Source of the DNA: Oscillospiraceae bacterium
GTDB taxonomy: Bacteria; Bacillota; Clostridia; Oscillospirales; Oscillospiraceae
Assembly (NCBI GenBank): GCA_017448455.1
Contig: JAFSLL010000158.1
Span: 1 to 35,135 of the forward strand
DNA length: 35,135 bases
Direction: 5' to 3'
The notes beneath the pieces are model-generated. The model worked only from the letters and a program-made list of their open reading frames with translations, did not search any database and was not told the origin of the DNA. The translations under genes were made by a program, and so were the position numbers. Shown here one piece after another: positions 3,821-30,348 of the stretch. Position 1 is the first letter of the stretch. Every line of letters begins with the position of its first letter.

Positions 3821-3912
3821 GCAGAAGTACCCAAGAGGCCGAAGGGGCTCCCCTGCTAAGGGAGTAGGTGTCTAAAAAGCACGCGAGGGTTCAAATCCCT
3901 CCTTCTGCGCCA
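3821..3912 (+). tRNA. tRNA-Ser (anticodon GCT)
   Basis: This is a 92-nt class II tRNA. The acceptor GCAGAAG pairs with CTTCTGC, the anticodon stem is CTCCC/GGGAG with loop CTGCTAA (anticodon GCT at 3855-3857), there is a long variable arm, the T-loop is TTCAAAT, and the CCA end is encoded. It reads AGC and AGU codons. It sits 41 bp from the left copy of the 130-bp direct repeat. Confidence 0.97.
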
Positions 3913-3915
3913 CAT

Positions 3916-3952
3916 AAAAACACCGGGAAATGTTTCATTTCCCGGTGTTTTT
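3916..3952. terminator. Symmetric bidirectional terminator after tRNA-Ser
   Basis: A 17-bp perfect stem (3916-3932 with 3936-3952) has a 3-nt TTT loop and A/T runs at both ends, so it can act on both strands. It terminates tRNA-Ser on + and is the first strong terminator met by leftward transcripts from the glycoside operon. Confidence 0.92.
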
Positions 3953-3953
3953 C

Positions 3954-4083
3954 TATTCAGATGCTTTGTTATCTGATGAAATTCGTTGTGGAGTCCCATT
4001 CCGTCTCAGGATAAGGAATCCCCTGCTGCCGCTCCAGTTCGAAGCACTTCATCATCCAGACCATGTTTCTGGCCAGATTTCTC
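3954..4083 (+). repeat. 130-bp direct repeat, left copy
   Basis: This stretch matches 13503-13632 in the same orientation with 5 mismatches and no gaps (about 96% identity). It begins 2 bp after the tRNA-Ser terminator and ends 22 bp before the stop of the GPH symporter gene. The right copy is the 3' end of the intact flavoprotein gene. The two copies are 9549 bp apart and enclose the whole glycoside islet. Confidence 0.95.
3969..4082 (-). pseudogene. 3'-end remnant of an iron-sulfur flavoprotein gene
   Basis: The frame holds 37 codons plus a TAA stop and encodes the C-terminus of the flavoprotein located at 13518-14141, including the ending TTNFIR. Two residues differ (Leu to Met and Gly to Glu), and the frame has no internal stop. 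There is no start codon context or upstream part of the gene, so it is a truncated copy. It would be transcribed only by read-through from the symporter gene. It was probably created when the islet arrived or during a duplication. Confidence 0.9.
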
Positions 4084-4105
4084 TGTTGTCAGGTAGATCT
4101 CCGTA

Positions 4106-5644
4106 TCAATTCTTTAAAACTGAGGGATATTTAGCCATTGCCTCATCTATGCTGAGTCCGTCCGCAACAGCTAATTTTCGCTGTGCATTTACTGCCTGGA
4201 TTTCCTTCAGACGTTCTCCGTCGAGTTCATAGCCTCGCATGGACCAGAGCGTCAAAGCCCAGGCGCACATGGGCAGAATACAGAAGAGAATAATGACAAC
4301 CACATTCATACCGGAAGTATAAGGAGTTGTCTTGGTAGGCAGTGCATCCAGTCCGATCAGCGTAACTGCAATACCGACTATTGTCGCGGACAGAGAAGAG
4401 ACCAACTTGTCAACCAAAGAAAAGAGTGTACCCATGATGCCGGGAATAAACTTTCCGGAGCGATAGGTTTCATAGTCAGCACAATCGGCGACCATCGGAA
4501 TGGGCATATCAGCCGTCGCGTAGTAGGCACCATATCCCACCCCAAAGAACAGGACAAAGAGGACCGTATAGAGGTTAACTGCCAATTTTCCGTCCTTCAT
4601 GAAGGACATATGCATGGCTGTATTCGGGTTCCACAGCAGGAGCAAAACCAGCACGCCTACATAGCAAACCAACGCAACCGCAACATAACGCATGAGGGAG
4701 GCCTTCTGTCCTTTTTTCTGGCTGGTACGCACAGTAAGGCCAAAAAATGGGACAGCAAAGACATAGCCCACGATCATCATCGGCAGGTACAGCCCATCGT
4801 AATCCCCCATCATACAGGAGTAAAGCATAATCAGAACCGTAATATTTGTTGCGACGGACAGTGCCAGCTTGCATCCGCCACCTGCAATCATAAGACGCTG
4901 CAGGGGTTTGTTCGCTTTCATAATCTGAATGTACTCAGATACTTTGACAGTTTCCTGCCTTCCACCCAGCCCGAAGTATTTAGACTGGTCCTTTTCCCAG
5001 ATGCCAATGATGGCAAGAATCGTGAGGAGAACAGATATGCCGATTCCAATTGGGGTCATGGCAGCGAACCAGCTCTGGTTGTAATCACCGAAGATGCTGT
5101 CACGGGCAAGGATGGGACCTATGAACTGCATGATGCCCATACCCGCAAGAGAGCCGATCGTATTAAAAATTGTAAACAGCGGCCGCTGTTTCGGATCATT
5201 GGTCAAAACTGCCTGCGCCGCTCTGGTGACAGAGGTCTGGAAGGTGTAACCGATAACCCATACTGCGTAAAGCAGGATAAAGAGTGCATACCGCAGCCAC
5301 ATCATGCTTGCCGGCACAAAAGGAGTAAACACATACAGGAGGATGACAGAAACAGCCATAACGACCGAACCGATAATCATAAATGGCCGAAACTTGCCAA
5401 AACGGCCATTGGTTTTATCCATCAGTGCACCGATAATCGGATCTGTAATGGCATCAAAAACACGCATCCCTGTGACCATAAAGGACGCAAAAACCGTTGC
5501 GATTCCCAGCACGACACTGCCAAAGGTAGCAATATACGTCAGAATCAGGACATAATAAACGTTGGTTGCACCGTTATTCATCGGGAACAGCGCAAGCTGG
5601 TAAAACTTTGCCCGGTTTAACTGTGTGTTGCTTGTGTTTTCCAT
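4106..5644 (-). CDS. GPH-family glycoside/hexuronide:cation symporter
   Basis: This 512-aa polytopic membrane protein has about 12 hydrophobic segments and belongs to the glycoside-pentoside-hexuronide (MelB-like) branch of the major facilitator superfamily. The family signature is clear: D64 and D68-P69 in FDAITDPIIGALMDKT, followed by GRFGKFRP at 80-87. The residues equivalent to D64 and D68 form the cation site in MelB. Such carriers import intact glycosides with Na+ or H+. It lies 15 bp downstream of the GH2 gene and is the last gene of the operon; GAAAGGG precedes the ATG. The substrate is inferred to be a beta-glucuronide or beta-galactoside because of the adjacent GH2 enzyme. Confidence 0.9.
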   Translation of the reverse strand: MENTSNTQLNRAKFYQLALFPMNNGATNVYYVLILTYIATFGSVVLGIATVFASFMVTGMRVFDAITDPIIGALMDKTNGRFGKFRPFMIIGSVVMAVSVILLYVFTPFVPASMMWLRYALFILLYAVWVIGYTFQTSVTRAAQAVLTNDPKQRPLFTIFNTIGSLAGMGIMQFIGPILARDSIFGDYNQSWFAAMTPIGIGISVLLTILAIIGIWEKDQSKYFGLGGRQETVKVSEYIQIMKANKPLQRLMIAGGGCKLALSVATNITVLIMLYSCMMGDYDGLYLPMMIVGYVFAVPFFGLTVRTSQKKGQKASLMRYVAVALVCYVGVLVLLLLWNPNTAMHMSFMKDGKLAVNLYTVLFVLFFGVGYGAYYATADMPIPMVADCADYETYRSGKFIPGIMGTLFSLVDKLVSSLSATIVGIAVTLIGLDALPTKTTPYTSGMNVVVIILFCILPMCAWALTLWSMRGYELDGERLKEIQAVNAQRKLAVADGLSIDEAMAKYPSVLKN

Positions 5645-5659
5645 AGTGTTATCCCTTTC

Positions 5660-7570
5660 TCAAACCCAATTAGCACCTTTGTCCCCTGCTGCCTGCAGCG
5701 TGTAGGAAGCGTTCGGTTTGGAGACCTTGTAAAAGACCGCTTCATCGGCCACTTCACCGCCAGCCGCGCGTATTCTGGTTTCGGCGCCCATGGGAACCAT
5801 AAAGGTAAAGATATGTTCGCCATGCTTAGTCTCAAGTTTATCACCATTGACATAGAGCGTTATTTCATTCTGATTGGAATAGACTTTTACCTCAATTTTT
5901 TCTTCCGTGCGGTCCTGAAAGCGTTTGGAGCAGATATGTACGAACGGCTCTCTGGACCAGTATGCTTTATACAGGTAAAAGCTGTCTTTGCGAGTCTTCC
6001 GGTCAAAGGTGACGAGGCCCTTGTGATTCATGCCCGGTTCCCCTCCCTGATCACGGGCATCTGCAGCAAAGTCAAACATATTCCAGACATGGGTGGCCCA
6101 CATATACGGGTTGCGTTCGAAACACGCCAGCATATACTCATGGTATCTGGCCTGATACTCTTCCGTATGGTCCCCGCGGTGCGGATGAGAAGAATGCAGA
6201 TTGGGTATCCCTTCGCAGCCATATTCGGAGTAGCCCAGACAGCGATCGGGATAAGCGGTATGGAAGAAGCGCATCCAGACGTCATTCAGCCACAGGCCCG
6301 GTACATACCAGCCAAGGTAGAGATTCCAGCTGACCACATCTGTTATATGGGCAACCGGGTTAAAAGGGCCACACATGGCATAACAGGCAAGTGTCGTAAA
6401 GCGGTTCGGATCCATGCGATGGCAAAGATCATTCAGAACACGGTGATTATCCAGCATGTCTTTTTTGTCTCTGGTAGAGTTTGTAATCTCATTCGACACT
6501 CCCCAGCAGACAATAGAGGGATGATTATAGCACTGTACAATCAGCTCTTTCATCTGAGATATGGTGTTTTCCCTGCCCTTCGGCATATGTTCGGAGATAT
6601 AGGGTATTTCGGCCCAGACAACCATACCCCGTTCATCGCAGAGATCATAAAAGTACTGATCATGCTGATAATGGGCAAGACGGATTGTATTTGCCCCCAT
6701 CTCGCAAATGATGTCCATATCTTCTCTGTGCATGTCCCGGGTGATCGCGTTTCCCACCCCCTTACGGTCCTGATGGCGGCTCACACCGCGCAGCGGATAT
6801 CTGCGGCCATTCAGATAAAAACCGGTTTTGGGATGATAGTGGAAATCGCGCACACCAAAGCGAGCCGAAACTTCATCTCCTGATGATAGTTTTGCAATAC
6901 AGGTGTAGAGATAGGGATCCTCAATACCGTTCCAAAGGTGTACATTCTCGATATACAGAAGTTGTTCAGATCCTTTTCCAGCTGCTACTTCCCTTCCATC
7001 CGCATCAACCAGGGTGACGGTTACAGTTTCTTCACTGTTCTGGAAGGTCTTTACAGAAACCTCTGCACGATCATAGCCCTCCAGAGGTTTTGCCGTTACC
7101 GTCAGACCGTATCCGCCGTAATAGTCGAGGTCAAAATGCTTCTCCGGAACGATCAGCAGTTCCACATCGCGGTAAATTCCGCCATAGAAAGTAAAATCGG
7201 CCTTCTGAGGATATACACTGTCGTTCGGTGCATTGGAAACCGATACGGATAACACATTCTCTTCGGAAAGAACATCTGTTACATCTGTACGGAACGTGGA
7301 ATAACCGCCTTCATGCGACATCACTTTTTTTCCGTTCAATGTAACCGTGCATTCGGAGTTGACCCCGTGGAACTGAAGATAGACCCGTTCCGAATCCGCA
7401 TAGGCAGGTTTCTCAAACGTTTTCTCATAGCCGCATAGGCAGCGTTTATAATCGTTCCCGCCATCCTGGCCGTCGACTGCATTCCAGGTGTGGGGAACAC
7501 TGATCACTTCTACCGTGCCGGCCGGACCTTTAAAATGCCAGTCCTGATTCAGATTAATTATCGTTCTCAT
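5660..7570 (-). CDS. GH2 beta-glycosidase (beta-glucuronidase/beta-galactosidase family)
   Basis: The 636-aa cytoplasmic enzyme has no signal peptide. It shows the GH2 order: sugar-binding jelly roll (1-140), immunoglobulin-like domain (about 150-245), TIM barrel (about 250-540) and a short C-terminal beta domain. The acid/base is E361 in WGVSNEI and the likely nucleophile is E449 in GYSEYG. An Asn-x-Lys triplet (N515-H516-K517, before GLVTFDRK) is where E. coli beta-glucuronidase carries its glucuronate-recognition NxK motif. Related beta-galactosidases can carry a similar triplet, so the substrate is not settled. GGAGGG lies just upstream of the ATG. It would hydrolyse glycosides imported by the next gene's product. 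Confidence 0.9.
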   Translation of the reverse strand: MRTIINLNQDWHFKGPAGTVEVISVPHTWNAVDGQDGGNDYKRCLCGYEKTFEKPAYADSERVYLQFHGVNSECTVTLNGKKVMSHEGGYSTFRTDVTDVLSEENVLSVSVSNAPNDSVYPQKADFTFYGGIYRDVELLIVPEKHFDLDYYGGYGLTVTAKPLEGYDRAEVSVKTFQNSEETVTVTLVDADGREVAAGKGSEQLLYIENVHLWNGIEDPYLYTCIAKLSSGDEVSARFGVRDFHYHPKTGFYLNGRRYPLRGVSRHQDRKGVGNAITRDMHREDMDIICEMGANTIRLAHYQHDQYFYDLCDERGMVVWAEIPYISEHMPKGRENTISQMKELIVQCYNHPSIVCWGVSNEITNSTRDKKDMLDNHRVLNDLCHRMDPNRFTTLACYAMCGPFNPVAHITDVVSWNLYLGWYVPGLWLNDVWMRFFHTAYPDRCLGYSEYGCEGIPNLHSSHPHRGDHTEEYQARYHEYMLACFERNPYMWATHVWNMFDFAADARDQGGEPGMNHKGLVTFDRKTRKDSFYLYKAYWSREPFVHICSKRFQDRTEEKIEVKVYSNQNEITLYVNGDKLETKHGEHIFTFMVPMGAETRIRAAGGEVADEAVFYKVSKPNASYTLQAAGDKGANWV

Positions 7571-7583
7571 ATTCCCTCCGATA

Positions 7584-7620
7584 GAATCATACTCCAGCAG
7601 GAGCTGCCGGAGTATGATTC
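7584..7620. other. Strong intercistronic hairpin
   Basis: A 12-bp perfect inverted repeat (GAATCATACTCC with GGAGTATGATTC) has a further 4-bp GCAG/CTGC pairing inside the loop. It lies between the 145-aa membrane protein gene and the GH2 gene. Neither strand has a T-run, so it is more likely an mRNA processing or stability element, or a partial attenuator, than a terminator. Confidence 0.6.
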
Positions 7621-7628
7621 AAAACTGT

Positions 7629-8066
7629 TTATTTCGCGGTTTTCGCGTTCTTCATGAAGGAAGCAATGATCAGCAGCAGGCACCCCAAAACAAACCCGAC
7701 AACTCCGGTGACGGTGGCATAAAACACACGCCATCCAACCATATTCTGAGAGTTGTAGGAGAAGAGGCCGGCGATCATCAGGACGCGATCAGAAATCATA
7801 GTTCCGACAACGCCCATGAAAAGAGCGATTGCACCGACGGTTCCGAATGTGCTGAGAATGTCATGGTTCCCGAAGCGGGTCGGAGTCCATACCGCAACCA
7901 GACAGAGAAGGACACCGCAGACGCCCATCACCGTCAGTGTACTGACCGTTTTGTAAGCATACGCTGAATCGATGCTGCTGGAGGTCCGCATGCCAACGAC
8001 ACCAACAATACCGGCAACAGCGGCAATCAGGGTCAACCAGGAACCGAAAGTAAGCTTTTTAAGCAT
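7629..8066 (-). CDS. Small four-helix membrane protein, unknown function
   Basis: The 145-aa hydrophobic protein has four likely membrane helices at about residues 9-27, 40-61, 73-92 and 113-137, with a Lys-rich C-terminus (KNAKTAK). I do not recognise a family. ATG at 8064-8066 is preferred because AGGAGG lies 9 nt upstream; longer in-frame starts lack a site. Its start codon is one base past the stop of the GH3 gene, with the ribosome site inside the GH3 coding end, so it is translationally coupled to GH3. That placement suggests a partner or membrane organiser of the GH3 enzyme, which is inference only. Confidence 0.75.
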   Translation of the reverse strand: MLKKLTFGSWLTLIAAVAGIVGVVGMRTSSSIDSAYAYKTVSTLTVMGVCGVLLCLVAVWTPTRFGNHDILSTFGTVGAIALFMGVVGTMISDRVLMIAGLFSYNSQNMVGWRVFYATVTGVVGFVLGCLLLIIASFMKNAKTAK

Positions 8067-8067
8067 C

Positions 8068-11000
8068 TTATTTTTCCTCCTTTTTCCGCAGTTTGGCAAC
8101 AAGATACAGGGCAGCGGAGCAGATCATCAGAGCGCCGAAAGCATACTCTGCAGTCTGATATGCGGTACGCCAGAACACAGGCAGCTTCACCACACGGGTG
8201 GACGCATCATAACGGTTCATAAGGTTAGACTGGCTCATCGCATAAAGAATCTTATGCACAGATGCCTTAATGGCATTCTGAGCGGTGGCATCACCGGAGA
8301 ACACCCGCGCATCAATAACAGAGCCGTCAACCTGATCAGCGAAACGGCCGCCGTCAAGCGTTGTGGTAGAATAGAAGCCTGCCATTCCGCGTGTGTCATA
8401 ACAGGTTGTACCGGAGGTCAAAACTGCGCCGTAAATATCGAAATCATCGTAGATATCGGTGACGGCATAACCACGGAAGCCGAATTCTTTTGCCAGGATA
8501 TTTGTCATCAGACCGACAGAAGCCGTGCATTCAACGGAGCCTATTTTTGAGAAGGAGATCATCAGGCCGCGCATTCCCTGATCAAATTCGTCCGTATCAT
8601 ACTTGGTTGCCTCAAAAGCATACTGATAGGCACGAAGCTCAACTTCACGCGCGCGCTGCTCGGTCATGTAAGGGGCTACACCGGAGCGGTTGGTCTCCTG
8701 GTCATTGAAGGCATAGTGCTTCGGTGCGGCGATCAGGCCGTATTTCAGAGCGCCAACAGCGAATTCCATGGCCGTAACACCGGAGAGGATTGGATCTTCC
8801 GAATAGTATTCTCCGTTGCGACCATTATAGGCATGGCGATGGGTGTTCAGACCGGGTCCCCAGAGGATGGGAATTCCTGTAAAGAGGCTTTCTTCGCCGA
8901 CAAAGGCACCGAGATCATAGCAGAGCTGCGGATTAAAGGAGGAAGCTGTCAGCGGACTGTTGCCGAACACTTCCGGATGCCAGTTCCCGTTGGGATCGGA
9001 AGCTGCAATGTTCCAGGGGGCCATCGTATCCTTAGAGGCGTTGAGATTGACAGCAACACCGTTGCCGGCGTTTTCCGTCATATAGGTCTCAACCGTGCCG
9101 ATCGTGCTTGCTCCGGGAATGGAGGGACCGCCATAAGTAGCGAGGTACTGGGCTTCTTCAAGAGTCATGTTGTTGATGAGCTCGTCCCACTTCTCATCTT
9201 CAAAGTCAACGCCCCACATCTCATAAAACTTGACGCCGTTGTCTTCTTCCCAAATGATATCAGATGTATCATCATCGGTTTTGATAGTGTAATACTTGCC
9301 GTTGAGGTTGTCAATCAGCTCCTGACTGGTAAGGGTCAGAGCATCGTAGGTCTTCGGCCAGGTGCCGGACCAGTCGGCGCGGCTGAGATAGGTCACTTCG
9401 CCGGGCTGATAGTAGTTCCAGTCAGCATAGGGAATCTGATTTACAATCTTTTCGCCGGTCTTGGCAACGGAGAAGGCAGTGCGCTCGATAAAGCTCTCAT
9501 CAATCTCACGTTCATAAGCCATATCGGCATTACCGGGGACATCCATGCCCTGCAGGGCCATAATGTTCTGAAGTGCAGCATGTGCTCCATTTCCGACAGC
9601 AAAGAAATAGGCCCCAGGATCGAGAATATAGCCACCCTCTCCATTATTGAGGGTTACATCATAACTTGCAATATACTGCAGATCGCAGATAACCTCGACT
9701 GTCTCAGACTCACCTGGCTGAAGGACCTGGGATTTGTCATAGTTAAGGAGCTGAATCGCACTTTTCTCGATACCGCCCTGAATATAAGGAGCCTGTCCAT
9801 AAATCTGAACCGGCGTCTTGCCTGCCACATCACCGATGTTCGTAACTTTCACTCTGAATGTGGCTGTCGCATCGACGGAGCCGTTACTGTTCTTCTTAAC
9901 CGCGAACTCCGGCTCCCCTTCAAATTCAAAGCTGAAGTCCGTATAGCTCAAGCCATAACCAAACCCATAAGCGACTTCTTCATCATAGTTCCAGTTGCCT
10001 GTGGATGCATATACGCCAGCAGTGGATGCAGCATTGCCCTGTCCTGCCACCGCATCATAATACCGGGTCTCGTAATAGCGGTATCCGACATAGATTCCCT
10101 CTGCTTCCATAATATACATGCCTGTATTACCACCGAACATACCGCCGCCACGGGTCACAGTACCATCGGCATTGGCATAGCGGAAGTTGCCCATGTTCTG
10201 CATGGCAGGTGCAGACATATTCTTTGCAGCGAAGATGTCAAACAGACCGCCGGAAGGACTGACCTTACCTGAGAGAATGTCAGCAACACCGAGCATTCCA
10301 TAGGCACCTGGTGCGCCAATCCAGAGGATAGCATCAACATCCGGATCATTCTTCAGGTCTGCAATTTCCACAGAGGCAGAGCTGTTGATAAGGACGATAA
10401 CCTTATCGGAGCACTCTTTAGCAAGAGCAATGGCATCACGCTCGTTCTGGGAAAGAGCAAGGGGCTCATCCATACCGAGGCCGGGAACTACACCGCCCGG
10501 AAGATAGTCATGGCTCTCACCGGACGCACGAGAAATCACCACAATGGCTGCATCGCCATACTGTGCAAAACTGTCTTTATAACCCGGATTCACCTTTTCA
10601 ATGTCCGCAAGAGAAGGCTCGCGCGGGTCAAAGACTTCTTCCGCCCCTTCGTTGTACTCGTGGTGGAAGTCCGCGAGAAGTTTCTCATAGATGTCTATCA
10701 TCGTCTGATTGAGTTTGTAACCTGCGCCGTCAAAGTCAAACTCGTCACCGGTCCAAGCATCCATGGTCGGTCCAATCGTCACTTCACCTGTTGCCCAGTT
10801 ACTGGAAGCAGAATCGGACATCGTGTTGGCAAAGTCAGTTCGATTATCCCGCAAAGCCTGTTCGAGATTAATGACCGGGCCCCAGACTTTTACGCCGAAG
10901 GCACTGCCCAGCACTGGTTTGTGACTGCGGATGCCGAGCAGGGTCACATTTGCGCCGGATGCGAGCGGCAGAACGTCATTCTCGTTTTTGAGAAGAACGC

Positions 11001-11274
11001 TGCCCTCATAAGCCTGACGCCGGTTGAGGTCAATGGCTTTCTGAATCAGTGCGTGGGAATTTCCGGTGCCATCCTCGTTCAGGACTTCATCGGAGGGGAC
11101 AAACTTGTCATAGAGCGCACCGTCAGACTCCACCCGTTCCGACTGTGTGCCCATATAAGTGTCGATCGTCGCAGCATTTGCCTCAAGGACATTGCCCGCT
11201 ATGATCGAGAGGGCGAGGAAGAAGCACATCAGGCTTGTCAGTCCCCGCCAGAGACCGGTTCTTTTCACTTTCAT
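8068..11274 (-). CDS. Membrane-anchored GH3 enzyme with permuted domain order
   Basis: The 1068-aa exported protein has an N-terminal signal sequence (hydrophobic 11-29, ANA cleavage motif 32-34) and a C-terminal membrane helix (about 1041-1060) followed by KLRKKEEK, predicting an outside-facing, tail-anchored enzyme. GH3 modules are in reverse order. The alpha/beta C-domain comes first (about 75-345, starting GSVLLKNENDVLPL), then a fibronectin-III-like domain (about 445-565), then the catalytic barrel (about 690-1020). The barrel has GRNGEYYSEDP at 818-828, K852-H853 in APKHYAFND, and the probable nucleophile D940 in GFRGYAVTDIYDD. Permuted GH3 beta-glucosidases are known from Butyrivibrio and Ruminococcus. 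The substrate is unknown. It is the first gene of the glycoside operon, with AGGAGG upstream of the ATG. Confidence 0.9.
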   Translation of the reverse strand: MKVKRTGLWRGLTSLMCFFLALSIIAGNVLEANAATIDTYMGTQSERVESDGALYDKFVPSDEVLNEDGTGNSHALIQKAIDLNRRQAYEGSVLLKNENDVLPLASGANVTLLGIRSHKPVLGSAFGVKVWGPVINLEQALRDNRTDFANTMSDSASSNWATGEVTIGPTMDAWTGDEFDFDGAGYKLNQTMIDIYEKLLADFHHEYNEGAEEVFDPREPSLADIEKVNPGYKDSFAQYGDAAIVVISRASGESHDYLPGGVVPGLGMDEPLALSQNERDAIALAKECSDKVIVLINSSASVEIADLKNDPDVDAILWIGAPGAYGMLGVADILSGKVSPSGGLFDIFAAKNMSAPAMQNMGNFRYANADGTVTRGGGMFGGNTGMYIMEAEGIYVGYRYYETRYYDAVAGQGNAASTAGVYASTGNWNYDEEVAYGFGYGLSYTDFSFEFEGEPEFAVKKNSNGSVDATATFRVKVTNIGDVAGKTPVQIYGQAPYIQGGIEKSAIQLLNYDKSQVLQPGESETVEVICDLQYIASYDVTLNNGEGGYILDPGAYFFAVGNGAHAALQNIMALQGMDVPGNADMAYEREIDESFIERTAFSVAKTGEKIVNQIPYADWNYYQPGEVTYLSRADWSGTWPKTYDALTLTSQELIDNLNGKYYTIKTDDDTSDIIWEEDNGVKFYEMWGVDFEDEKWDELINNMTLEEAQYLATYGGPSIPGASTIGTVETYMTENAGNGVAVNLNASKDTMAPWNIAASDPNGNWHPEVFGNSPLTASSFNPQLCYDLGAFVGEESLFTGIPILWGPGLNTHRHAYNGRNGEYYSEDPILSGVTAMEFAVGALKYGLIAAPKHYAFNDQETNRSGVAPYMTEQRAREVELRAYQYAFEATKYDTDEFDQGMRGLMISFSKIGSVECTASVGLMTNILAKEFGFRGYAVTDIYDDFDIYGAVLTSGTTCYDTRGMAGFYSTTTLDGGRFADQVDGSVIDARVFSGDATAQNAIKASVHKILYAMSQSNLMNRYDASTRVVKLPVFWRTAYQTAEYAFGALMICSAALYLVAKLRKKEEK

Positions 11275-11287
11275 TCCTCCTGCAATT

Positions 11288-11344
11288 GTGTGTTAGGGAT
11301 AGAATAGGCTCCAATGATATTTTGCTGTGATCTATATAACACAC
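11288..11344 (-). promoter_or_regulatory. GH3 operon leader: inverted repeat and candidate promoter region
   Basis: The 78-bp stretch between the kinase terminator and the GH3 start carries an 8-bp inverted repeat, GTGTGTTA (11288-11295) and TAACACAC (11337-11344), 41 bp apart. Reading leftward, a TATTCT could serve as a -10 element, but no convincing -35 is seen, as expected of an activator-dependent promoter. The repeats could be binding sites for the adjacent LytTR regulator. This is a weak assignment. Confidence 0.4.
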
Positions 11345-11352
11345 GCAAAGCG

Positions 11353-11386
11353 AAAACGGCAGTTTTTAGAGCGAACTGCCGTTTTT
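11353..11386. terminator. Terminator of the two-component operon
   Basis: A 12-bp perfect stem (AAAACGGCAGTT with AACTGCCGTTTT) has a 9-nt loop and T-runs on both sides, located 51 bp past the kinase stop codon. It separates the sensor/regulator operon from the GH3 operon. Confidence 0.85.
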
Positions 11387-11436
11387 CCAGTGCGAATTGT
11401 CAGGGCACCATCTTATGGAATCCTGTGTTCGATTAT

Positions 11437-12690
11437 TCAGTTCTGAAGCAGATAAATATCCAACGTGAAAAGATCCCCGTCGACAGACGCACAGAGACTG
11501 CCGCCGTATTTCTCGGCAATGAGCTTCATGCTCTTCATCCCATAACCGTGGAACCCTTCTTCCTCAGTCTTACTGGTCTTCGGGACACCGTCCTCAAAAT
11601 GAAGCGTACCTGCAAAATAATTGCTGATGTGGATGCTGACCAGCTCTCCCCTGCGTTCGGAAATGATATCAATAATCTTCTTTTCCGGATCCTCCAATTT
11701 TTCCACAGCCTCAACTGCATTGGACACCGCGTTGCCAAACAGGGAATATACATCCATGATCTGCATGAAGCTGAGGTCTGCGCCATTTCCCGTGTAGGTC
11801 AGACGGATTCCCTCCTCCGAGCATCGAAGGCTGTTCTCGGTGAGAAGCACATCCAACGCCTCGTTGCCGGTATGAATCCGACTGCCATAAATGCGAACGG
11901 CATTCTTAATACTCTCAACTTCTTCCGGCGGCAGACGCATATCATGCAGCTTATGCTTTAAATCATGATATTTGATATTGATGGTGTCTATGGTCTTCTT
12001 GGAAAGCTCGTACTGTTTGCGTTCCTCCTGCCACATGAGATTCAACGCAGTATTTTCTGTCTGCAGGTCAACCAGCCGGTAGAGTACAAACTGTACCACC
12101 AGTGCCATTAAACAACAGGTAATGGCGTAGATGTTAACAGGAATGGAGTCTGCCGCTTTATACTGATTTACGACACGTGTCAAGCCAATACAGATCAGCA
12201 TTACTGCAATCGACAATGCATTAAACCGCAAGTCCGGCTTTTTCCATCCCTGCGTTCGAGCAGAAAACAGGCCAATGGTCAAGAACGCCAACAGATATAC
12301 CGGCGGAAAAACCACCAGTTCTGCCAGTTCCCAGTCTGCAAGCCCCATAGCAGTCATCCCACGGAACAGACCGGTTGTTGCCTGCACGATTTTCGCTGTG
12401 TGGTAAGCAATGTGTTCTACTGCATAACCGGCAACACAGAGGGAGAACAGGGCAGAAAAACGCAGACGGAAACAAAAACTCATGCCGGCAACCGTAAGTC
12501 CGAAGAGGAAGAGGTATATTAAAATCTGCACGAAAAGAGGCTGGTTTAAAGGTTCCCGGCGCGGCACGAGCAAATAACCTGCCATAAGCACCAAAAACAC
12601 CCCTGCCAGACGAAGTGCAAAGTGTTTTCGTCTGTCTGCCGGATAGAGAAAAATGAATTCTGCAAAGAGAAGCTCGAGAACAAACTTCAT
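11437..12690 (-). CDS. Sensor histidine kinase, GHKL (AgrC-like) type
   Basis: The 417-aa protein has about six membrane helices in residues 1-205, a short coiled linker, the phosphoacceptor motif YHDLKHKL (H242), and a GHKL ATPase domain with N-box FGNAVSNAVEAVE (N320, N324) and G-box GFHGYGMKS (379-387). This architecture is typical of LytTR-partner kinases that sense peptides or envelope signals through the membrane domain. Its ATG overlaps the regulator's stop codon (ATGA), so the pair is co-translated. A strong terminator follows. Its position just upstream of the glycosidase operon suggests it controls that operon, which would be an uncommon job for this kinase type. Confidence 0.92.
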   Translation of the reverse strand: MKFVLELLFAEFIFLYPADRRKHFALRLAGVFLVLMAGYLLVPRREPLNQPLFVQILIYLFLFGLTVAGMSFCFRLRFSALFSLCVAGYAVEHIAYHTAKIVQATTGLFRGMTAMGLADWELAELVVFPPVYLLAFLTIGLFSARTQGWKKPDLRFNALSIAVMLICIGLTRVVNQYKAADSIPVNIYAITCCLMALVVQFVLYRLVDLQTENTALNLMWQEERKQYELSKKTIDTINIKYHDLKHKLHDMRLPPEEVESIKNAVRIYGSRIHTGNEALDVLLTENSLRCSEEGIRLTYTGNGADLSFMQIMDVYSLFGNAVSNAVEAVEKLEDPEKKIIDIISERRGELVSIHISNYFAGTLHFEDGVPKTSKTEEEGFHGYGMKSMKLIAEKYGGSLCASVDGDLFTLDIYLLQN

Positions 12691-13394
12691 CTTCTACCCC
12701 CCATAAAATCCGACATTGCTGCCAGAAACGCCTTTCTCTGCGGACGGGAGATATCCAGCTTCTTCTCGCCTATTTTCGCTTCCGTCTTACTGACAGACGT
12801 CACGTGATACAGATTAACTAAGCAGCTGCGATTAACAAAGACAAAGTAGCTGCGGTTAAGTTTTCCATAGGCTTCCTTGAGAGTCCCATATTCTTCAATA
12901 TCCCCGTCAGCTGTGTGATATACAACATAATGCCCGTCAATATCAAGATATCGGATAGCAGAGATTTCAAGCTGACGGATTTCTCCATCGCATTTAACGG
13001 GAATATATTCTTCCGCACGTTTTGGAACACGGGAAACAGCACGCCTCATTTTGATGGCAAAGGAATACCTGTTGACCGGCTTCAAAATATAGTCCAATGC
13101 ATCAACTTCATATCCGGCTATGGCATACTGGGTCATGTTGGTAACAAAGATCAGCAAGACTGTCGGATCCATCTTTCGCAGCACCCGTGCAGTTTCCATG
13201 CCGTTCATGCCCGGCATCTCAATATCCATAAATACAAGGTCATAATCGTTGGAGTAATTCCCTATAAAGGCAGTCCCGGTTAAGAACTCGGTGACAGAAA
13301 AGGAATAGCCTTCGCTCTCTTCCAGCCAGCGCAGACAGCTGCAAAGACGTGCCCGCTCTGCAGAATCATCTTCGACAACAGCAACACGGATCAA
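12687..13394 (-). CDS. LytTR-family response regulator
   Basis: The 235-aa regulator has a receiver domain (1-120) with the acidic pair in VVEDD, phosphoacceptor D57 in VFMDIEMPG and Lys in LKPV. A LytTR DNA-binding domain (about 128-230) contains YFVFVNRSCLVNL. An upstream GTG at 13401-13403 directly touches GGAGG and has no spacing. TTG at 13392-13394 lies 8 nt after GGAGG and gives the usual N-terminus MIRVAVVEDD, so the TTG start was chosen. Family members bind pairs of direct repeats upstream of target promoters. The likely target is the neighbouring GH3 operon. Confidence 0.9.
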   Translation of the reverse strand: MIRVAVVEDDSAERARLCSCLRWLEESEGYSFSVTEFLTGTAFIGNYSNDYDLVFMDIEMPGMNGMETARVLRKMDPTVLLIFVTNMTQYAIAGYEVDALDYILKPVNRYSFAIKMRRAVSRVPKRAEEYIPVKCDGEIRQLEISAIRYLDIDGHYVVYHTADGDIEEYGTLKEAYGKLNRSYFVFVNRSCLVNLYHVTSVSKTEAKIGEKKLDISRPQRKAFLAAMSDFMGGRR

Positions 13395-13423
13395 TTCCCT
13401 CACCTCCCGCTTCTTTATCTGCT

Positions 13424-13452
13424 ATCTTATCACAACTTGCGGATTCTTACAA
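13424..13452 (-). promoter_or_regulatory. Promoter of the two-component operon
   Basis: On the minus strand, TTGTAA (13447-13452) and TAAGAT (13424-13429) are spaced by 17 bp, 30 bp upstream of the TTG start codon. Confidence 0.55.
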
Positions 13453-13457
13453 TTATG

Positions 13458-13493
13458 AAAGCAACGGCCAGGTCATATCCTGCCCGTTGCTTT
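13458..13493. terminator. Hairpin after the flavoprotein gene
   Basis: A 10-bp perfect stem (AAAGCAACGG with CCGTTGCTTT) has further pairing (CAGG/CCTG) in its loop. It lies 25 bp past the flavoprotein stop, but the leftward T-run is short. It differs completely from the sequence that follows the left repeat copy. Confidence 0.55.
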
Positions 13494-13502
13494 GTAGATT
13501 CG

Positions 13503-13632
13503 TATTCAGATGCTTTGTTATCTGATGAAATTCGTTGTGGAGTCCCATTCCGTCTCAGGATAGGGAATCCCCTGCTGCCGGCCCAGTTCGAAGCACTTCA
13601 GCATCCAGACCATGTTTCTTGCCAGATTTCTC
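13503..13632 (+). repeat. 130-bp direct repeat, right copy
   Basis: This is the partner of 3954-4083 (125 of 130 bases identical, same orientation). This copy contains the last 38 codons (stop included) of the intact flavoprotein gene plus 15 bp downstream. It marks the right edge of the glycoside islet. Confidence 0.95.
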
Positions 13633-14141
13633 ATCGTCTGCAGTCCTTCCGCGTCCTGTTCCGCATCGGCGGCAACACGGCCGTGGACCATATTCCAATA
13701 GGTTGAACCTGCCACAGGCATCTGGGAGATCCCAAAATACTTGTTCACTGCATCCAGCGCCGCTGTCGTTCCGCCGCGCCTCGCAACCGCCACCGCCGCT
13801 CCGGGTTTAAACATGAAAACATCGCTGTTGCTGAAGAAAACCCGATCCAGGAAAGAAAACAATCTGCCGCTGGGATGCGCATAATAGGTCGGCGTCGCAA
13901 AGACAAAACCGTCTGCTTCTTTGGCTTTCTCTACAAATTCGTTCACGCCGTCGTCATCAATAACGCATTTTCCCAGTTGTGAACACTTCCCGCACTGAAG
14001 GCAGTCCGCGATGGCTTTGCCTCCAAGATGGATGATCTCGGTTTCCACGCCGGCATCCTGGAAGACACCGACCATCTCATTGAGCGCACGCGCTGTTGTG
14101 CCATTCACATGGCTGCTGCCGTTCACCATCAATACTTTCAT
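13518..14141 (-). CDS. Iron-sulfur flavoprotein / NAD(P)H-dependent FMN reductase family
   Basis: The 207-aa flavodoxin-fold protein begins with VLMVNGSSHVNGTTA, an FMN phosphate-binding loop. The compact cluster C47-x2-C50-x2-C53-x5-C59 is the ligand pattern of iron-sulfur flavoproteins (Isf), which move electrons between ferredoxin-type donors and acceptors. A flavin-binding segment ATPTYYAHPSG follows at about 83-93. It is likely cytosolic. The ATG is preceded by AAAGGGG. Its terminal 38 codons form the right 130-bp repeat, and the other repeat copy is a truncated duplicate. The electron partner is unknown. Confidence 0.9.
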   Translation of the reverse strand: MKVLMVNGSSHVNGTTARALNEMVGVFQDAGVETEIIHLGGKAIADCLQCGKCSQLGKCVIDDDGVNEFVEKAKEADGFVFATPTYYAHPSGRLFSFLDRVFFSNSDVFMFKPGAAVAVARRGGTTAALDAVNKYFGISQMPVAGSTYWNMVHGRVAADAEQDAEGLQTMRNLARNMVWMLKCFELGRQQGIPYPETEWDSTTNFIR

Positions 14142-14180
14142 TTTTTCAGCCCCTTTGCGGAAAGATTATGTTCGGTTATT

Positions 14181-15971
14181 TCAGGGCTTGAGCTCGAGGT
14201 ACAGCGCGCGATACTGTTCGGCGGAGACATCCCAGGAGACATCCTTTGCCATGTCACGCTTTACCATCTCATCCCAGCGATCACGCTCTGTAAAGTAAAC
14301 TGTTTTGGCACGGTTGATCGCATCGAGCAGCAGGCCTGCCTCATAGCGGTCAAAGGTAAAGCCTTCCCCGCTGTTCTCGTACTGATTGTAAGGAGCTACC
14401 GTGTCTTTCAGGCCGCCTGTTTCGCGCACGATCGGCACAGTGCCATAGCGCATCGCAATCAGCTGTGTCAGGCCGCAAGGCTCAAACAGAGAGGGCACCA
14501 GAAACGCGTCTGACGCAGCATAGATATTATGGGCACGGCCCTCATCATACATAATGTTGGAGCAGACACTTCCCTTATAAGCCTGTTCATAGTAGCGGAA
14601 AGAATCCTCATAATACGCATCGCCGGTTCCGAGAACGACGACCTGGGTATTCCCGTCAATGACCGCCGGCAGAATGGCATTCACCAAATCCAGACCTTTC
14701 TGGTTCGTCAGGCGGGACACCAGCCCCAGGACGAACTTGTTCTCGTCAACTTCCAGGCCGAGCGCTTCCTGAAGGGCTTTTTTATTTGCCTTTTTCTTTT
14801 CGATCACATCAGAAGCCTGATAATTGACCGCCAGCAGGGAGTCCGTCGCGGTGTCCCACAGTTCGGTGTCGATGCCGTTGACGATCCCGCGAAGCTTCCA
14901 GGAGTGATGACGCATATGCGCATCCAGGTTTTCTCCGTAGAATGGGGTCTGAATTTCTCCGGCATAGGTGTTGGAAACCGTTGTGATCATATCGGCATAC
15001 GCCAGACCGCCCTTGAGCATATTGGCGTCATCCTGACCCTGTTTGAGCACATCAATATTGAACACTTCGTCGGGCAGCCCGGACCAGTACTTGATCGTCG
15101 GGATGTTGTATACGCCCTGGAAACGAAGATTATGAATCGTCAGCATGCTTTTGGCACTGGAAACCGGGGTGCCGGCGAACAGTGTGCGCAGATAGATGGG
15201 CACGAGAGCAGCCTGCCAGTCATGGCAGTGGATGATATCCGGAACCCAGTTCATGTAGTTCAGGGCAGCCAGCGCCGCCTTCGAGAAGAAGCAGAAGCGG
15301 GGAATATCGTCGATCAGGTTAATGTACGGATTGCCGGCAGAGAAGAACTCCTCATTGTCAATAAAATCATAGACAACGCCGTCCCATACATATTCCATAA
15401 TCCCCACATAGTAGCTGCGGCCGTCAGAGCATAGATTCATCATGAACTCACCGCGATAGATCATCTTGTCCTGATACTTCTGCGGGATGCATTTATAGCG
15501 CGGCAGGATCACCTTTACGTCGCAATTCTGCGCAGCGAGAGCCTTGGGCAGCGCGTACATCACGTCGCCGAGACCGCCGGTCTTTACGAAGGGATAGCAC
15601 TCCGAACCGATGAAGGCAACGCTTCTTCTGGGCTGAGGAAGCACTTTCTCCTCTGCTGGCTCTTCATAAATCTCAACAGAGATATCTTCGGTTTTTTCCA
15701 CGGGCTCCGCAGTCTCCTTTACGGTCTTTTTGCGGGGTGCCGCTTTCTTCACCGGCTTTTCCGCCGGTTCTGCTGCCTTTTTGGCGGCAGTCTTTTTGGT
15801 GCTTTCCTTTTTCGCGGGTTTTTCAGCGGTCTTCGCAGACGCGGATTCCGTTTTCACAGCGGTCTTCTTTGCCGTTGTTTTTTTTACGGGCTTTTCAGCC
15901 GTCTCTGCCTTTGCGGCAGTTTTCTTTTCTTTTACAGCGGCTTCTTCCGCCGCAGCTGTCTTTTTCGGCAT
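14181..15971 (-). CDS. glgA: Glycogen synthase (ADP-glucose, GT5) with Lys/Ala-rich N-terminal tail
   Basis: The enzyme transfers glucose from ADP-glucose to alpha-1,4-glucan. The GT5 core starts near residue 115. The donor-site motif K130-TGGLGDV follows SECYPFV, and the C-terminal domain holds FEPCGLTQLIAMRYGT. Residues 1-112 are an added low-complexity tail with many AKKT, EKPVKK and TAAKKA units, resembling the tails of histone-H1-like proteins; bacterial GlgA usually begins at the core. AAGGAG lies 10 nt before the ATG, so the tail is part of the gene and not a start artefact. The gene is monocistronic with its own promoter. The tail may bind polyanions or glycogen particles, which is inference. 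Confidence 0.94.
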   Translation of the reverse strand: MPKKTAAAEEAAVKEKKTAAKAETAEKPVKKTTAKKTAVKTESASAKTAEKPAKKESTKKTAAKKAAEPAEKPVKKAAPRKKTVKETAEPVEKTEDISVEIYEEPAEEKVLPQPRRSVAFIGSECYPFVKTGGLGDVMYALPKALAAQNCDVKVILPRYKCIPQKYQDKMIYRGEFMMNLCSDGRSYYVGIMEYVWDGVVYDFIDNEEFFSAGNPYINLIDDIPRFCFFSKAALAALNYMNWVPDIIHCHDWQAALVPIYLRTLFAGTPVSSAKSMLTIHNLRFQGVYNIPTIKYWSGLPDEVFNIDVLKQGQDDANMLKGGLAYADMITTVSNTYAGEIQTPFYGENLDAHMRHHSWKLRGIVNGIDTELWDTATDSLLAVNYQASDVIEKKKANKKALQEALGLEVDENKFVLGLVSRLTNQKGLDLVNAILPAVIDGNTQVVVLGTGDAYYEDSFRYYEQAYKGSVCSNIMYDEGRAHNIYAASDAFLVPSLFEPCGLTQLIAMRYGTVPIVRETGGLKDTVAPYNQYENSGEGFTFDRYEAGLLLDAINRAKTVYFTERDRWDEMVKRDMAKDVSWDVSAEQYRALYLELKP

Positions 15972-16056
15972 AACAGATATACTCCTTATGACTGAAATCC
16001 TTACGGATTCGTGATTGACTGTTTATATGCATTCTCTGAGAGGAATGCCGTGCTTT

Positions 16057-16084
16057 AATATAGTCATAAAAAAGGAAAAGTCAA
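16057..16084 (-). promoter_or_regulatory. Promoter of glgA
   Basis: On the minus strand, TTGACT (16079-16084) and TATATT (16057-16062) have 16-bp spacing. An approximately 80-nt leader follows with a small stem (GCATTC with GAATGC). Confidence 0.7.
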
Positions 16085-16173
16085 GGACATTCCAATTAAA
16101 ATACGGCTTTTGAGGGAATTTTTGTGCAATATGACCGGCATTCTTTCAATTATTATCGTGCATAATACCGTTA

Positions 16174-16179
16174 TATAAT
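16174..16179 (+). promoter_or_regulatory. Candidate -10 element for the 71-aa gene
   Basis: TATAAT lies 38 bp upstream of the start codon, on the strand diverging from glgA. No clear -35 hexamer is present at 16-18 bp, so the assignment is tentative. Confidence 0.4.
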
Positions 16180-16217
16180 GATACAATGAGTTATCCAAAA
16201 AGTCTGGAGGAATCATC

Positions 16218-16433
16218 ATGAAGAAACTGATCAACAAGTTTTTTAACAGGGAAAAGAAAAAAGCAAAGAAGAAAATGATGAAAAAAGTGAGAAATGCCAT
16301 CCTCGGCTGCTGCGCCGCCGTTTGCCTGCTCGGAACCGGATATTTCCTCGGAGTTCACCGCAAAGTGCTCAAGGCTTACATCCAGGGCCGTCCGCTTCCG
16401 AAAGCGCCGAAAGGCCATTGCTGTCACAGATGA
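16218..16433 (+). CDS. Small single-helix membrane protein, Cys-rich, unknown
   Basis: The 71-aa product has a strongly basic N-terminus (about residues 2-24, mostly Lys), one hydrophobic helix at about 27-46 that contains three Cys, and a tail ending GHCCHR. The positive-inside rule puts the Lys-rich end in the cytoplasm and the Cys/His tail outside. TGGAGGA precedes the ATG with good spacing, a TATAAT lies upstream and a strong terminator follows, so expression is credible. I do not recognise a family. The CC-H tail could bind metal or form disulfides. Confidence 0.7.
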   Translation: MKKLINKFFNREKKKAKKKMMKKVRNAILGCCAAVCLLGTGYFLGVHRKVLKAYIQGRPLPKAPKGHCCHR

Positions 16434-16441
16434 CATGATGT

Positions 16442-16482
16442 AAAAACCCGAAACCGCGTTCTGCATGCGGCTTCGGGTTTTT
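16442..16482. terminator. Bidirectional terminator
   Basis: The long stem (AAAAACCCGAA with TTCGGGTTTTT, extended inside by CCGC/GCGG around one mismatch) sits between the convergent 71-aa gene and the epimerase gene, with A/T tails on both sides. Confidence 0.9.
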
Positions 16483-16496
16483 CTTTCAGCTGTTTC

Positions 16497-17186
16497 TCAG
16501 CCCTGCCCGTAGTAAGCGTTTTTGCCGTGTTTGCGAAGATAGTGCTTATCCAGCAGTTCCTGCTGCATGGGGCCACGCTCCGGATTGATCATCATGGCAT
16601 GCCAATCCATAAAGGCAACTTCTTCCATAACAACCGCGTTGTGAACCGCGTTCATGGCGTCGGTGCCCCAGGCAAAGGGGCCGTGTGAAAAGACCAGCAC
16701 GCCCAGTACATCCGCCGGGTCTCTGTCAGAGAAGGTCTCAACAATGACCCTGCCGGTTTCCTTCTCGTACTCGCCCTTAATCTCCTCTTCTGTCATCGGA
16801 CGGGTGCAGGGAATTGCACCATAAAAGTAATCCGCCTGTGTGGTTCCCATTGCGGGGATTGCCATACCCGCCTGCGCAAAAGTCGTCGCCCAGCGGGAAT
16901 GCGTATGCACTATCCCGCCGCACGCGGGGAAAGCTTTATAAAGCTCTATATGAGTCGGCGTATCACTGCTCGGTTTCCATTTGCCATCGACGACCTTCCC
17001 TTCGAGATCAACCACCACCATATCCTCGACGGACATCCCGTCATAAGGAACACCGGACGGCTTGATAACGACGAGACCGGATTCCCGATCGATTGCGGAA
17101 ACATTGCCCCAGGTAAAGGTAACGAGATGGTATTTCGGAAGGAGCAGATTCGCTTCGAGCACCTGCTTTTTCAGTCGCTTCAGCAT
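16497..17186 (-). CDS. araD: L-ribulose-5-phosphate 4-epimerase
   Basis: The enzyme interconverts L-ribulose-5-phosphate and D-xylulose-5-phosphate, the last step of bacterial L-arabinose use. The 229-aa class II aldolase/epimerase fold has zinc ligands H94 and H96 in VHTHSRWAT and H168 in [10 protein letters not shown], plus D119 in GTTQADY; these sit within three positions of the E. coli residues. TWGNVSAID at 25-33 is the phosphate loop. The start at 17184-17186 was chosen because GGAGG lies 9 nt upstream and it begins one base after the kinase stop. A longer frame adds an unlikely 26-aa extension. It is the third gene of the pentose cassette. Confidence 0.94.
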
Positions 17187-17187
17187 G

Positions 17188-18744
17188 TCACAGAACCTCC
17201 GTAGCTGCTTTTTCCATTGGCAGCGCTTTCTGATAGCGTGAGAGAAAGACAGAGAATCCCGCAATGTCTGACGGATCCGCCATCAGCGTCGTGGAAACCG
17301 CGTCAGCGAATACGCGCTTGTCCAGATAGTCCTCCAGGCTCTCGTTCTCCTGCTTCCACAGCATGTATGCCGCAAGCAAGGCCATGCCGTAGGGTCCGCC
17401 TTCCCCTGCGGTCTCCATAACAGAAACCGGAGCCCCAACCGCCGCAGAGAGCATCCGCTGTCCGACACCGGGCGTCTTAAAGAAACCGCCGTGACCGTAA
17501 AGCTTATCAATCTCGACCTGTTCATTCTGTGTCAGAATATCCAAGCCGATTTTCAGTGTCGCGAGTGCGGAGAGAAGATGTGTCCGCATAAAATTCGCAA
17601 GTGTAAAACGGGCATTCTGCATCCGGGCAAATACCGGTCTTCCCTCGTTCAGGTCTGTTACGCCTTCCCCGGAGAAGTAATTGTAGCTGAGCAGACCGCC
17701 GCAGTCGCTGTCCCCTTCCATGGCCTTGTTAAACAGGAGCCGGAAGAGCGTGCCCCTGTCTACCGGAGTACCAATGAGCTCGGCAAATGAAGAAAAGAGA
17801 TTCACCCAGGCATTGATATCGCTGGTGCAGTTGTTGCAGTGTACCATTGCAACCGGAAGACCGGCTGGGGTCGTCACCATATCGATTTCTCGATGAACAC
17901 CAAGAGGCTTGTCCGTAACAATCATGGCAAAATCCGAGGTGCCTGCAGAAACATTGCCGGTTCTTACCCTGACGGAGTTGGTTGCTGTCATGCCGGTACC
18001 GGCATCTCCTTCACAGGGTGCGAGAGGAATCCTGGGCTGAAGCGTGCCGGTCGGATCCAGAAACAGAGCGCCTTCCTGCGTCAGTCTGCCGGCACAAACT
18101 CCCGCGGGCAGAACCTTTGGCAGAATGCAATGCAGATCAATGCCGGTAAGAGCATAGAACTTCTGAACCATCTCTTCATCATAATCGCAGATGGAGGAAT
18201 CGATCGGGAACATGCCGCTGGCTTCTCCCACGCCCATCAGTTTTTCACCGCTGAGTTGCCAGTGGATATAGCCGGCGAGCGTTGTGAGAAAGGCGATCTG
18301 TCCGACATGTTCTTCCCCGTTCAGGATTGCCTGATAGAGGTGCGCAATGCTCCAGCGCTGAGGGATGTTGAATCCGAACAGATTCGTCAGTTCCTCCGCA
18401 GCTTCCCCTGTGATGGTGTTTCGCCAGGTGCGAAACTCCGCCAGCTGCCTGCCATCGGCGTCAAACGGGAGATAGCCGTGCATCATGGCAGAGACACCAA
18501 TCGCGCCGACTGTTGTCAGATCGGTGCCAAACTTCTGCCTCACATCCTCACGCAGAGAAGCAAAGCAGGACTGGATCCCGCTGTGGATATCCTCCATGGT
18601 ATAAGTCCAGATTCCGTTGACGAGACGGTTTTCCCACTCGTGGTCGCCGGAGGCAATCGGGAGATGATTCTCATCAACCAGGACGGCCTTGATCCTGGTG
18701 GAGCCAAGCTCAAGGCCGAGAACAGTCTTCGTCAGATCCATCAT
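17188..18744 (-). CDS. FGGY-family carbohydrate kinase (ribulokinase role likely)
   Basis: The 518-aa cytosolic sugar kinase starts with the FGGY phosphate-binding segment [16 protein letters not shown] (10-25). It also has [11 protein letters not shown] at about 89, [17 protein letters not shown] near 242 and a Gly-rich [15 protein letters not shown] in the C-terminal half. Members phosphorylate pentuloses, hexuloses or polyols. Between an isomerase and AraD the expected reaction is L-ribulose to L-ribulose-5-phosphate. It does not look like classical AraB and is nearer the XylB-like FGGY group often paired with this isomerase type, so the substrate is inferred. The ATG overlaps the isomerase stop by 4 nt (ATGA). 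An immediate second ATG is an alternative start. Confidence 0.85.
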
Positions 18745-30200: not shown

Positions 30201-30348
30201 GCAAGCCTGAATTGACAGTTTTCCGGAAAATGCTTTCAATACGGTCGATCTTTCTGTCAAGGAACAGAATATCAGAAAACTGATCTGACGAAAACGATCC
30301 AGGCAGAGGCGATAAACGTGTCCATCGTTTCTGTATGGTTGAATGATG

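Follow-up and report, generated by a model that had tools for sequence, protein, structure and literature searches.

For the immunity-gene arrays of Vibrio cholerae, PMC5361080 proposes that an incoming module is held by one homologous anchor while its other end is joined without homology, and the same account mentions Rhs orphan 3' regions. In Escherichia coli, the element e14 in icd leaves the 3' end of a gene present twice, with the element side supplying the working end (PMC6379469), and merodiploids made by transformation retain duplicated sequence after recombination of DNA of which part is repeated in the chromosome (PMC3784515). Here we describe a 35,135-nucleotide (nt) stretch of DNA from an Oscillospiraceae bacterium (assembly GCA_017448455.1, contig JAFSLL010000158.1, positions 1 to 35,135; hereafter the window), in which a 130-nt direct repeat made from the 3' end of a flavoprotein gene bounds a six-gene glycoside-use islet beside a tRNA-Ser gene. 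The arrangement is a scar of an already known kind, around a mobile operon. Among the papers listed in literature searches on integrase-free islets with gene-end repeats, nothing was on point.

A duplicated flavoprotein gene end bounds the islet

Self-comparison of the window (seed 14) reported a sole direct repeat of at least 30 nt, whose copies at 3954-4083 and 13503-13632 lie 9549 bp apart from start to start and are identical at 125 of 130 positions, with a longest exact run of 60 nt and mismatches at 4014, 4032, 4033, 4052 and 4071. A search of the genome itself agreed with this self-comparison, and with the original prediction of the repeat, in returning the second copy (E value 3.5e-56) and no third copy beyond these two places. 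We then self-compared 97 other loci, a count that may include overlapping loci, each at least 9 kb in length and totalling 1,731,100 bases (1.73 Mb), and found no comparable pair, that is, no direct repeat of at least 80 nt and at least 85% identity with copies more than 1 kb apart. The source genome contributed four of these loci and relatives in the genus 31, the remainder, by subtraction, coming from contig searches; one known duplicate was dropped. Given the E value and the absence of a comparable pair among the control loci, the repeat pair is not a product of chance.

The right copy (minus strand) is the true 3' end of the flavoprotein gene at 13518-14141 (minus strand), which Pfam places in the FMN_red family, and comprises one base of codon 170, codons 171-207, the stop codon and 15 nt downstream. 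The left copy, on the same strand, consists of the last 37 codons, the stop codon and 15 nt of a flavoprotein allele; it has no start codon and is stranded beside tRNA-Ser. Both assignments had been made in the original prediction and were confirmed.

Five differences separate the copies, of which two are silent, two fall in codon 187 and one in codon 181, such that the left remnant encodes Met181 and Glu187 and the intact gene Leu181 and Gly187. Across 109 distinct orthologues extending to residue 200 (the window's own loci set aside), position 181 is occupied by Leu in 62 cases, Met in 20, Ile in 18, Val in 8 and Lys in 1, with Met in each of the 12 closest; at position 187, 95 have Gly and one has Glu. 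Because the left copy has Glu187 and the intact gene Leu181, each copy, when set against these orthologue patterns, probably carries a change of its own. We rejected the view that the left copy simply arose by decay of the right one, as its Met181 is shared with the closest orthologues.

The copies differ by 3.8%, compared to 52-54% at the four-fold sites of IMPDH between this genome and the seven nearest species as ranked by that protein (G015, G120, G117, G076, G094, G111 and G064; 94-95%), which points to a recent event, or a recent split of the two alleles, on the IMPDH four-fold scale. The same comparison led us to reject an old independent duplication as the source of the left copy.

The sequence past the gene end differs between the two copies, as expected of two alleles. 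On the left it is a perfect bidirectional, terminator-like hairpin that follows tRNA-Ser (3916-3952), and on the right another strong hairpin, a possible flavoprotein terminator with the approximate limits 13459-13494; for both, none of 200 shuffles folded as well on either strand. A genus-wide search for the right-junction hairpin gave two weak partial matches, in G064 and G122, and a hairpin-like stretch can be seen by eye after the flavoprotein stop codon of G064. The left border is abrupt and falls inside a codon, 22 nt after the stop codon of the GPH gene that ends the islet, with no hairpin between; the fold of the interval 4040-4110 is no stronger than that of shuffled sequence (z -0.85), and this 22-nt spacer (4084-4105) contains no operon terminator of its own. 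In G030 and G113, by eye, hairpin-like sequence follows the GPH stop codon. A transcript of the operon in the window would now read on through the remnant of the flavoprotein gene as far as the tRNA hairpin.

The islet genes form an operon found in other genomic contexts

All six islet genes are on the minus strand and fill 4106-13403; of the repeat-bounded segment, only 22 nt at the left end and 99 nt at the right end lie outside the operon. From the upstream end, and by Pfam unless noted, they encode a LytTR response regulator (12687-13403), a GHKL sensor kinase (11437-12690), a GH3 glycosidase with a permuted domain order (8068-11274), a small hydrophobic protein that has no Pfam match and is kept in the loci of relatives (7629-8066), a GH2 glycosidase (5660-7570) and a GPH-family sugar symporter (4106-5644). 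The domain order of the GH3 protein is PF01915 (93-390), PF14310 (489-562) and PF00933 (777-941), or sandwich, FnIII-like domain and barrel. The small open reading frame (ORF) had been listed from 8102, and its start is probably the Met near 8066, because the ORF of G113 begins at that MLKK. The same small protein lies beside GH3 in four congeners, the source genome included, as well as in G480, G412 and G333. Consistent with the original prediction of an islet without an integrase, Pfam identified no recombinase or integrase among the six genes, and as these occupy 4106-13403 there is no room left for one. That prediction also proposed comparing base composition with the flanks, and we found a GC content of 0.495 in the islet versus 0.526-0.538 in its surroundings.

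We looked for the operon in a genus sample of 102 genomes, comprising the source genome and 101 others, with one genome per species. GH3 matches at E<=1e-100 were present in 20 of the 102, the source genome included, but identity reached 90-91% only in G030, G113 and G090, with the next best at 47%. These 3 of the 101 other genomes contain the whole operon in collinear form, the six genes in the same order, in support of the earlier view that exactly one functional set lies between the repeats. Their homology to the window begins at 4103-4119 and runs to 13406-13454, limits that coincide with the operon's final stop codon and its promoter region (upstream region 13404-13454, minus strand, with the G030 homology ending at 13454), and the neighbours of the operon differ among the window, G030, G113 and G090. 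Because the same gene order occurs in differing chromosomal contexts, and because the homology ends at the operon's own limits, the six genes form an operon that moves as a unit and is horizontally mobile.

None of G030, G113 and G090 has a match to the 130-nt repeat or any repeat of at least 80 nt; at the 18-nt level, a weak 21-nt repeat family brackets the operon of G113, and no other such bracket was found in G030 or G090. In G113, a 36% partial FMN-reductase-like match lies at least 4 kb from the operon. The GC content of the operon is 0.60-0.61 in these three genomes versus 0.495 in the window islet, and this gap, together with differences of 54-64% at the four-fold sites of the GH3, GPH, kinase and regulator genes, led us to reject all three as the direct donor.

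The seven IMPDH-closest species yielded no GH3 match at E<=1e-100, and a sample of 393 other genomes of the order, searched at E<=1e-200, yielded four. In G333, the GPH, GH2 and small-protein genes are present with a weakly similar sensor kinase (29%) and response regulator (34%), in an order that differs from that of the window; in G412, the GPH, GH2 and small-protein genes are near GH3. The remaining two matches are on short contigs, where G480 (7.7 kb) has the small protein with a weakly similar kinase and regulator, and G485 (5.3 kb) has GH2 near GH3. In searches at 'near' sensitivity, phage records gave no match and plasmid records matched with one plasmid, at the tRNA-Ser stretch only; viral contigs searched with GH3 contained no relative.

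The islet lies in a variable region of the genus

In G117, tRNA-Ser has the same orientation as in the window and a DacA-like gene, which in the window aligns from 21392, is found within about 80 bp of it. Past this gene the flank of G117 is largely collinear to about window position 30240, after which one gene is inverted, while the segment 3954-21390 is missing at this place by alignment. Because G117 has tRNA-Ser beside the DacA-like gene, the region from 3954 to about 21390 (17.4 kb), including the flavoprotein, GlgA and fucose-type genes, is variable by this comparison, and the tRNA-Ser/flavoprotein junction that the original prediction expected recombination to restore is not a conserved one. 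In G111 and G094, tRNA-Ser is inverted relative to IMPDH, with the DacA-like gene on its 5' side (in G094 with an extra gene between), and in G076 this gene is likewise on the 5' side of tRNA-Ser. The orientation of tRNA-Ser relative to its neighbours is thus shared by the window and G117 and opposite in G111, G094 and G076, in surroundings that are otherwise similar.

The flavoprotein had matches at E<=1e-75 in 12 of the 102 genus genomes, the source genome included. At the 11 loci of relatives no other window protein was matched at E<=1e-10, although several lie near contig ends, where neighbours are partly unseen. The best orthologue in the genus (85%) is that of G064, away from other window genes, and at the DNA level the best congener gene is 76% identical. 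The source genome also has second, diverged copies of GlgA (67%; C238) and of an FGGY kinase (82%; C231), whose window counterparts lie within 14181-18744.

The adjoining tRNA-Ser gene is an integrase target in the genus

The tRNA-Ser(gct) gene at 3821-3912 (plus strand), identified by a tRNA search, serves as a hot spot for integration in this genus. With its short flanks it has matches in 87 of the 102 genomes, and in at least 19 of the 102, by hand count, a 21-31 nt piece of its 3' end recurs downstream on the same contig and strand, although some of the short, nearby pieces could be other things; among the matches listed, the nearest such piece is 0.1-26 kb away. In G120, about 12.5 kb lies between two tRNA-Ser ends and includes genes for a tyrosine integrase, next to the tRNA, and for a MobA/MobL relaxase. 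This mobilisable element (C74, 2809-15566), bounded by the tRNA 3' piece, encodes the integrase at 14080-15303, the relaxase at 10296-11654, a D5-type protein and an AAA/DUF4143 ATPase, and a further tRNA-end-like piece lies near 1900. In G015, no integrase was identified beside the second tRNA 3' piece among the six of 47 ORFs that were run against Pfam.

A 16-base tRNA pattern had one exact match in the window, tRNA-Ser itself, with no second tRNA-Ser 3' end and two further matches at three mismatches (a tRNA-Arg and the start of a regulator gene). An island delimited by tRNA-Ser attachment sites was therefore rejected for the window, there being no second tRNA 3' end. As far as can be read from the sequence, the islet adjoins an integrase target but did not use it.

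Related tRNA sequence was also encountered elsewhere. In the source genome, a loose tRNA-Ser 3' piece at the start of contig C163 (1-40) is followed by a TnpV gene and may mark where another element, or sequence of a co-binned strain, ends. The tRNA-Ser region also has a 94% identical counterpart at 438537-438633 of NZ_AP023421.1, a 504-kb plasmid of Pusillibacter faecalis that is predicted to be conjugative.

Origin of the islet

The observations to be explained are the repeat, the unity of the islet, its absence from close relatives, the missing operon terminator and the differences on both repeat copies. We consider it possible, though somewhat short of probable, that a mobile glycoside-use operon reached the flavoprotein gene through general recombination, homologous at one end and illegitimate at the other, and not through an integrase. 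The donor, order of events and pathway that we infer would be as follows. Donor DNA of the same species or one very close to it, in which the operon already lay beside the flavoprotein gene and which read from the GPH gene to the response regulator, the hairpin and the flavoprotein end, would pair with the resident flavoprotein gene. The right-hand exchange would be homologous, somewhere in the flavoprotein gene or beyond, whereas the left-hand joint would be illegitimate, linking the incoming end to codon 170/171 within the resident gene. The last 37 codons of the resident gene would thereby be stranded beside tRNA-Ser, and the working gene would take the incoming 3' end, such that the 'repeat' would represent the resident and incoming alleles of one gene end, recently split given that they differ by so little. 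This double exchange yields the footprint in one step, fits the changes on both copies, follows the model put forward for the V. cholerae arrays (PMC5361080) and explains the most with the least; for these reasons we regard it as the best explanation.

Several points weigh against it. None of the 11 flavoprotein and three operon loci of relatives has the operon beside the flavoprotein gene without the left remnant. Homology-facilitated illegitimate events are called rare in PMC5361080, and PMC3240628 describes them as very infrequent in conjugating E. coli, with linear DNA in that species being degraded or else circularised and integrated by single crossing-over. The changes on both copies could follow a simple duplication too. 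The source genome has ComEC, which does not alone show competence, and the sequence is that of a metagenome-assembled genome (MAG) with 7.3% contamination.

The original prediction had offered circle entry or a local duplication with deletion as the source of the footprint, which the double exchange would also leave, in one step. In the case of duplication, which we consider unlikely but worth retaining, the operon and flavoprotein gene would already have been neighbours, the unit 4084-13632 would have been doubled in tandem and the first operon copy deleted up to the tRNA hairpin, making the left remnant a duplication joint. The border at 4083/4084 does look like such a joint, the copies are close in age and the right junction keeps a gene with its own hairpin, as judged by eye in G064; however, two events with precise outcomes are required, and no genome with two islets occurs among those compared (one per species). 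Only slightly more doubtful is a circle that carried the operon and the flavoprotein 3' end and entered by a single crossover, a route that predicts the exact geometry of tRNA, gene end, islet, gene end and rest of the gene, and that finds support in the circularisation and single crossing-over given in PMC3240628 as usual for linear DNA in E. coli conjugation. This circle must nevertheless have closed between the GPH gene and codon 170, and its donor must already have carried the operon next to a gene end of 96% identity, whereas the best congener gene reaches 76% in DNA.

A one-step insertion that duplicated a 130-bp target, for example between sister chromatids, would yield an identical footprint, and merodiploid formation of this interchromatid type is known, with a 3.3-kb duplication without flanking repeats being mentioned in PMC3784515. 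We think it improbable here, as the published cases described in that source are chromosomal duplications, chiefly large, and not foreign operons. Site-specific integration at the gene 3' end, of the e14 in icd type and with the integrase lost or acting in trans, is more improbable still: the duplicated gene end with a working end on the element side is the e14 pattern (PMC6379469), and the tRNA-Ser here is an integrase target in relatives, but the islet has neither an integrase nor space for one, and three relatives (G030, G113 and G090) hold the operon without a gene end or long bracketing repeat, which makes entry by this means unlikely. An assembly or binning artefact is scarcely credible, since although the source is a MAG of 308 contigs with 7.29% contamination, the copies have five mismatches, exact runs of at most 60 nt and their own flank at each border, and both outer flanks of the islet region are syntenic with sister species.

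A computed deletion between the repeat copies removes 9549 bp and leaves the flavoprotein frame intact, with its stop codon 57 bp from tRNA-Ser. In many bacteria 60 exact bases are enough for RecA, and a deletion of the RecA type should be able to occur between the copies, at a low rate. To this extent the earlier suggestion that recombination would excise the whole set stands; its view of the resulting tRNA-Ser/flavoprotein junction as ancestral is not supported, given the DacA-like gene at that place in G117. A much bolder idea, which we consider very doubtful, is that the islet serves as a switchable, integrase-free metabolic cassette that RecA would delete and incoming DNA restore, with the flavoprotein gene always working, such that populations would mix sugar users and non-users and the operon would spread between species by borrowing neighbouring gene ends.

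Comparison with known systems

The islet offers a fairly recent and readable scar of a whole regulated carbohydrate operon settling without a transposase or integrase, in a gut-type genome labelled Oscillospiraceae and next to a tRNA gene known in the genus as a classic integrase target. Should there be strains that have the islet and others that lack it, its junctions would make the route of entry directly testable.

Part of the islet resembles a system known in another respect, as its GH3 enzyme has the same order of sandwich, FnIII domain and barrel as the permuted GlyA1 (PMC5104943), a likeness in Pfam domain order only; unlike GlyA1 as described there, it is located in a regulated operon with GH2 and GPH genes. 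The transformation merodiploids of PMC3784515 share with the islet the presence of duplicated sequence, but their duplications are chiefly large (e.g. 107.4 kb), with insertion sequence copies at the borders, in contrast to what we see here. The e14 element likewise leaves a gene 3' end twice, but integrates site-specifically (PMC6379469), whereas the islet has no integrase and its operon occurs in relatives without the gene end. In the V. cholerae arrays, as in the islet, the incoming module would displace a resident gene, or the end of one, to its far side, and in both cases the mechanism is a proposed one (PMC5361080); the arrays displace immunity genes, whereas the islet strands a 37-codon fragment without a start codon, and its cargo is a sugar operon.

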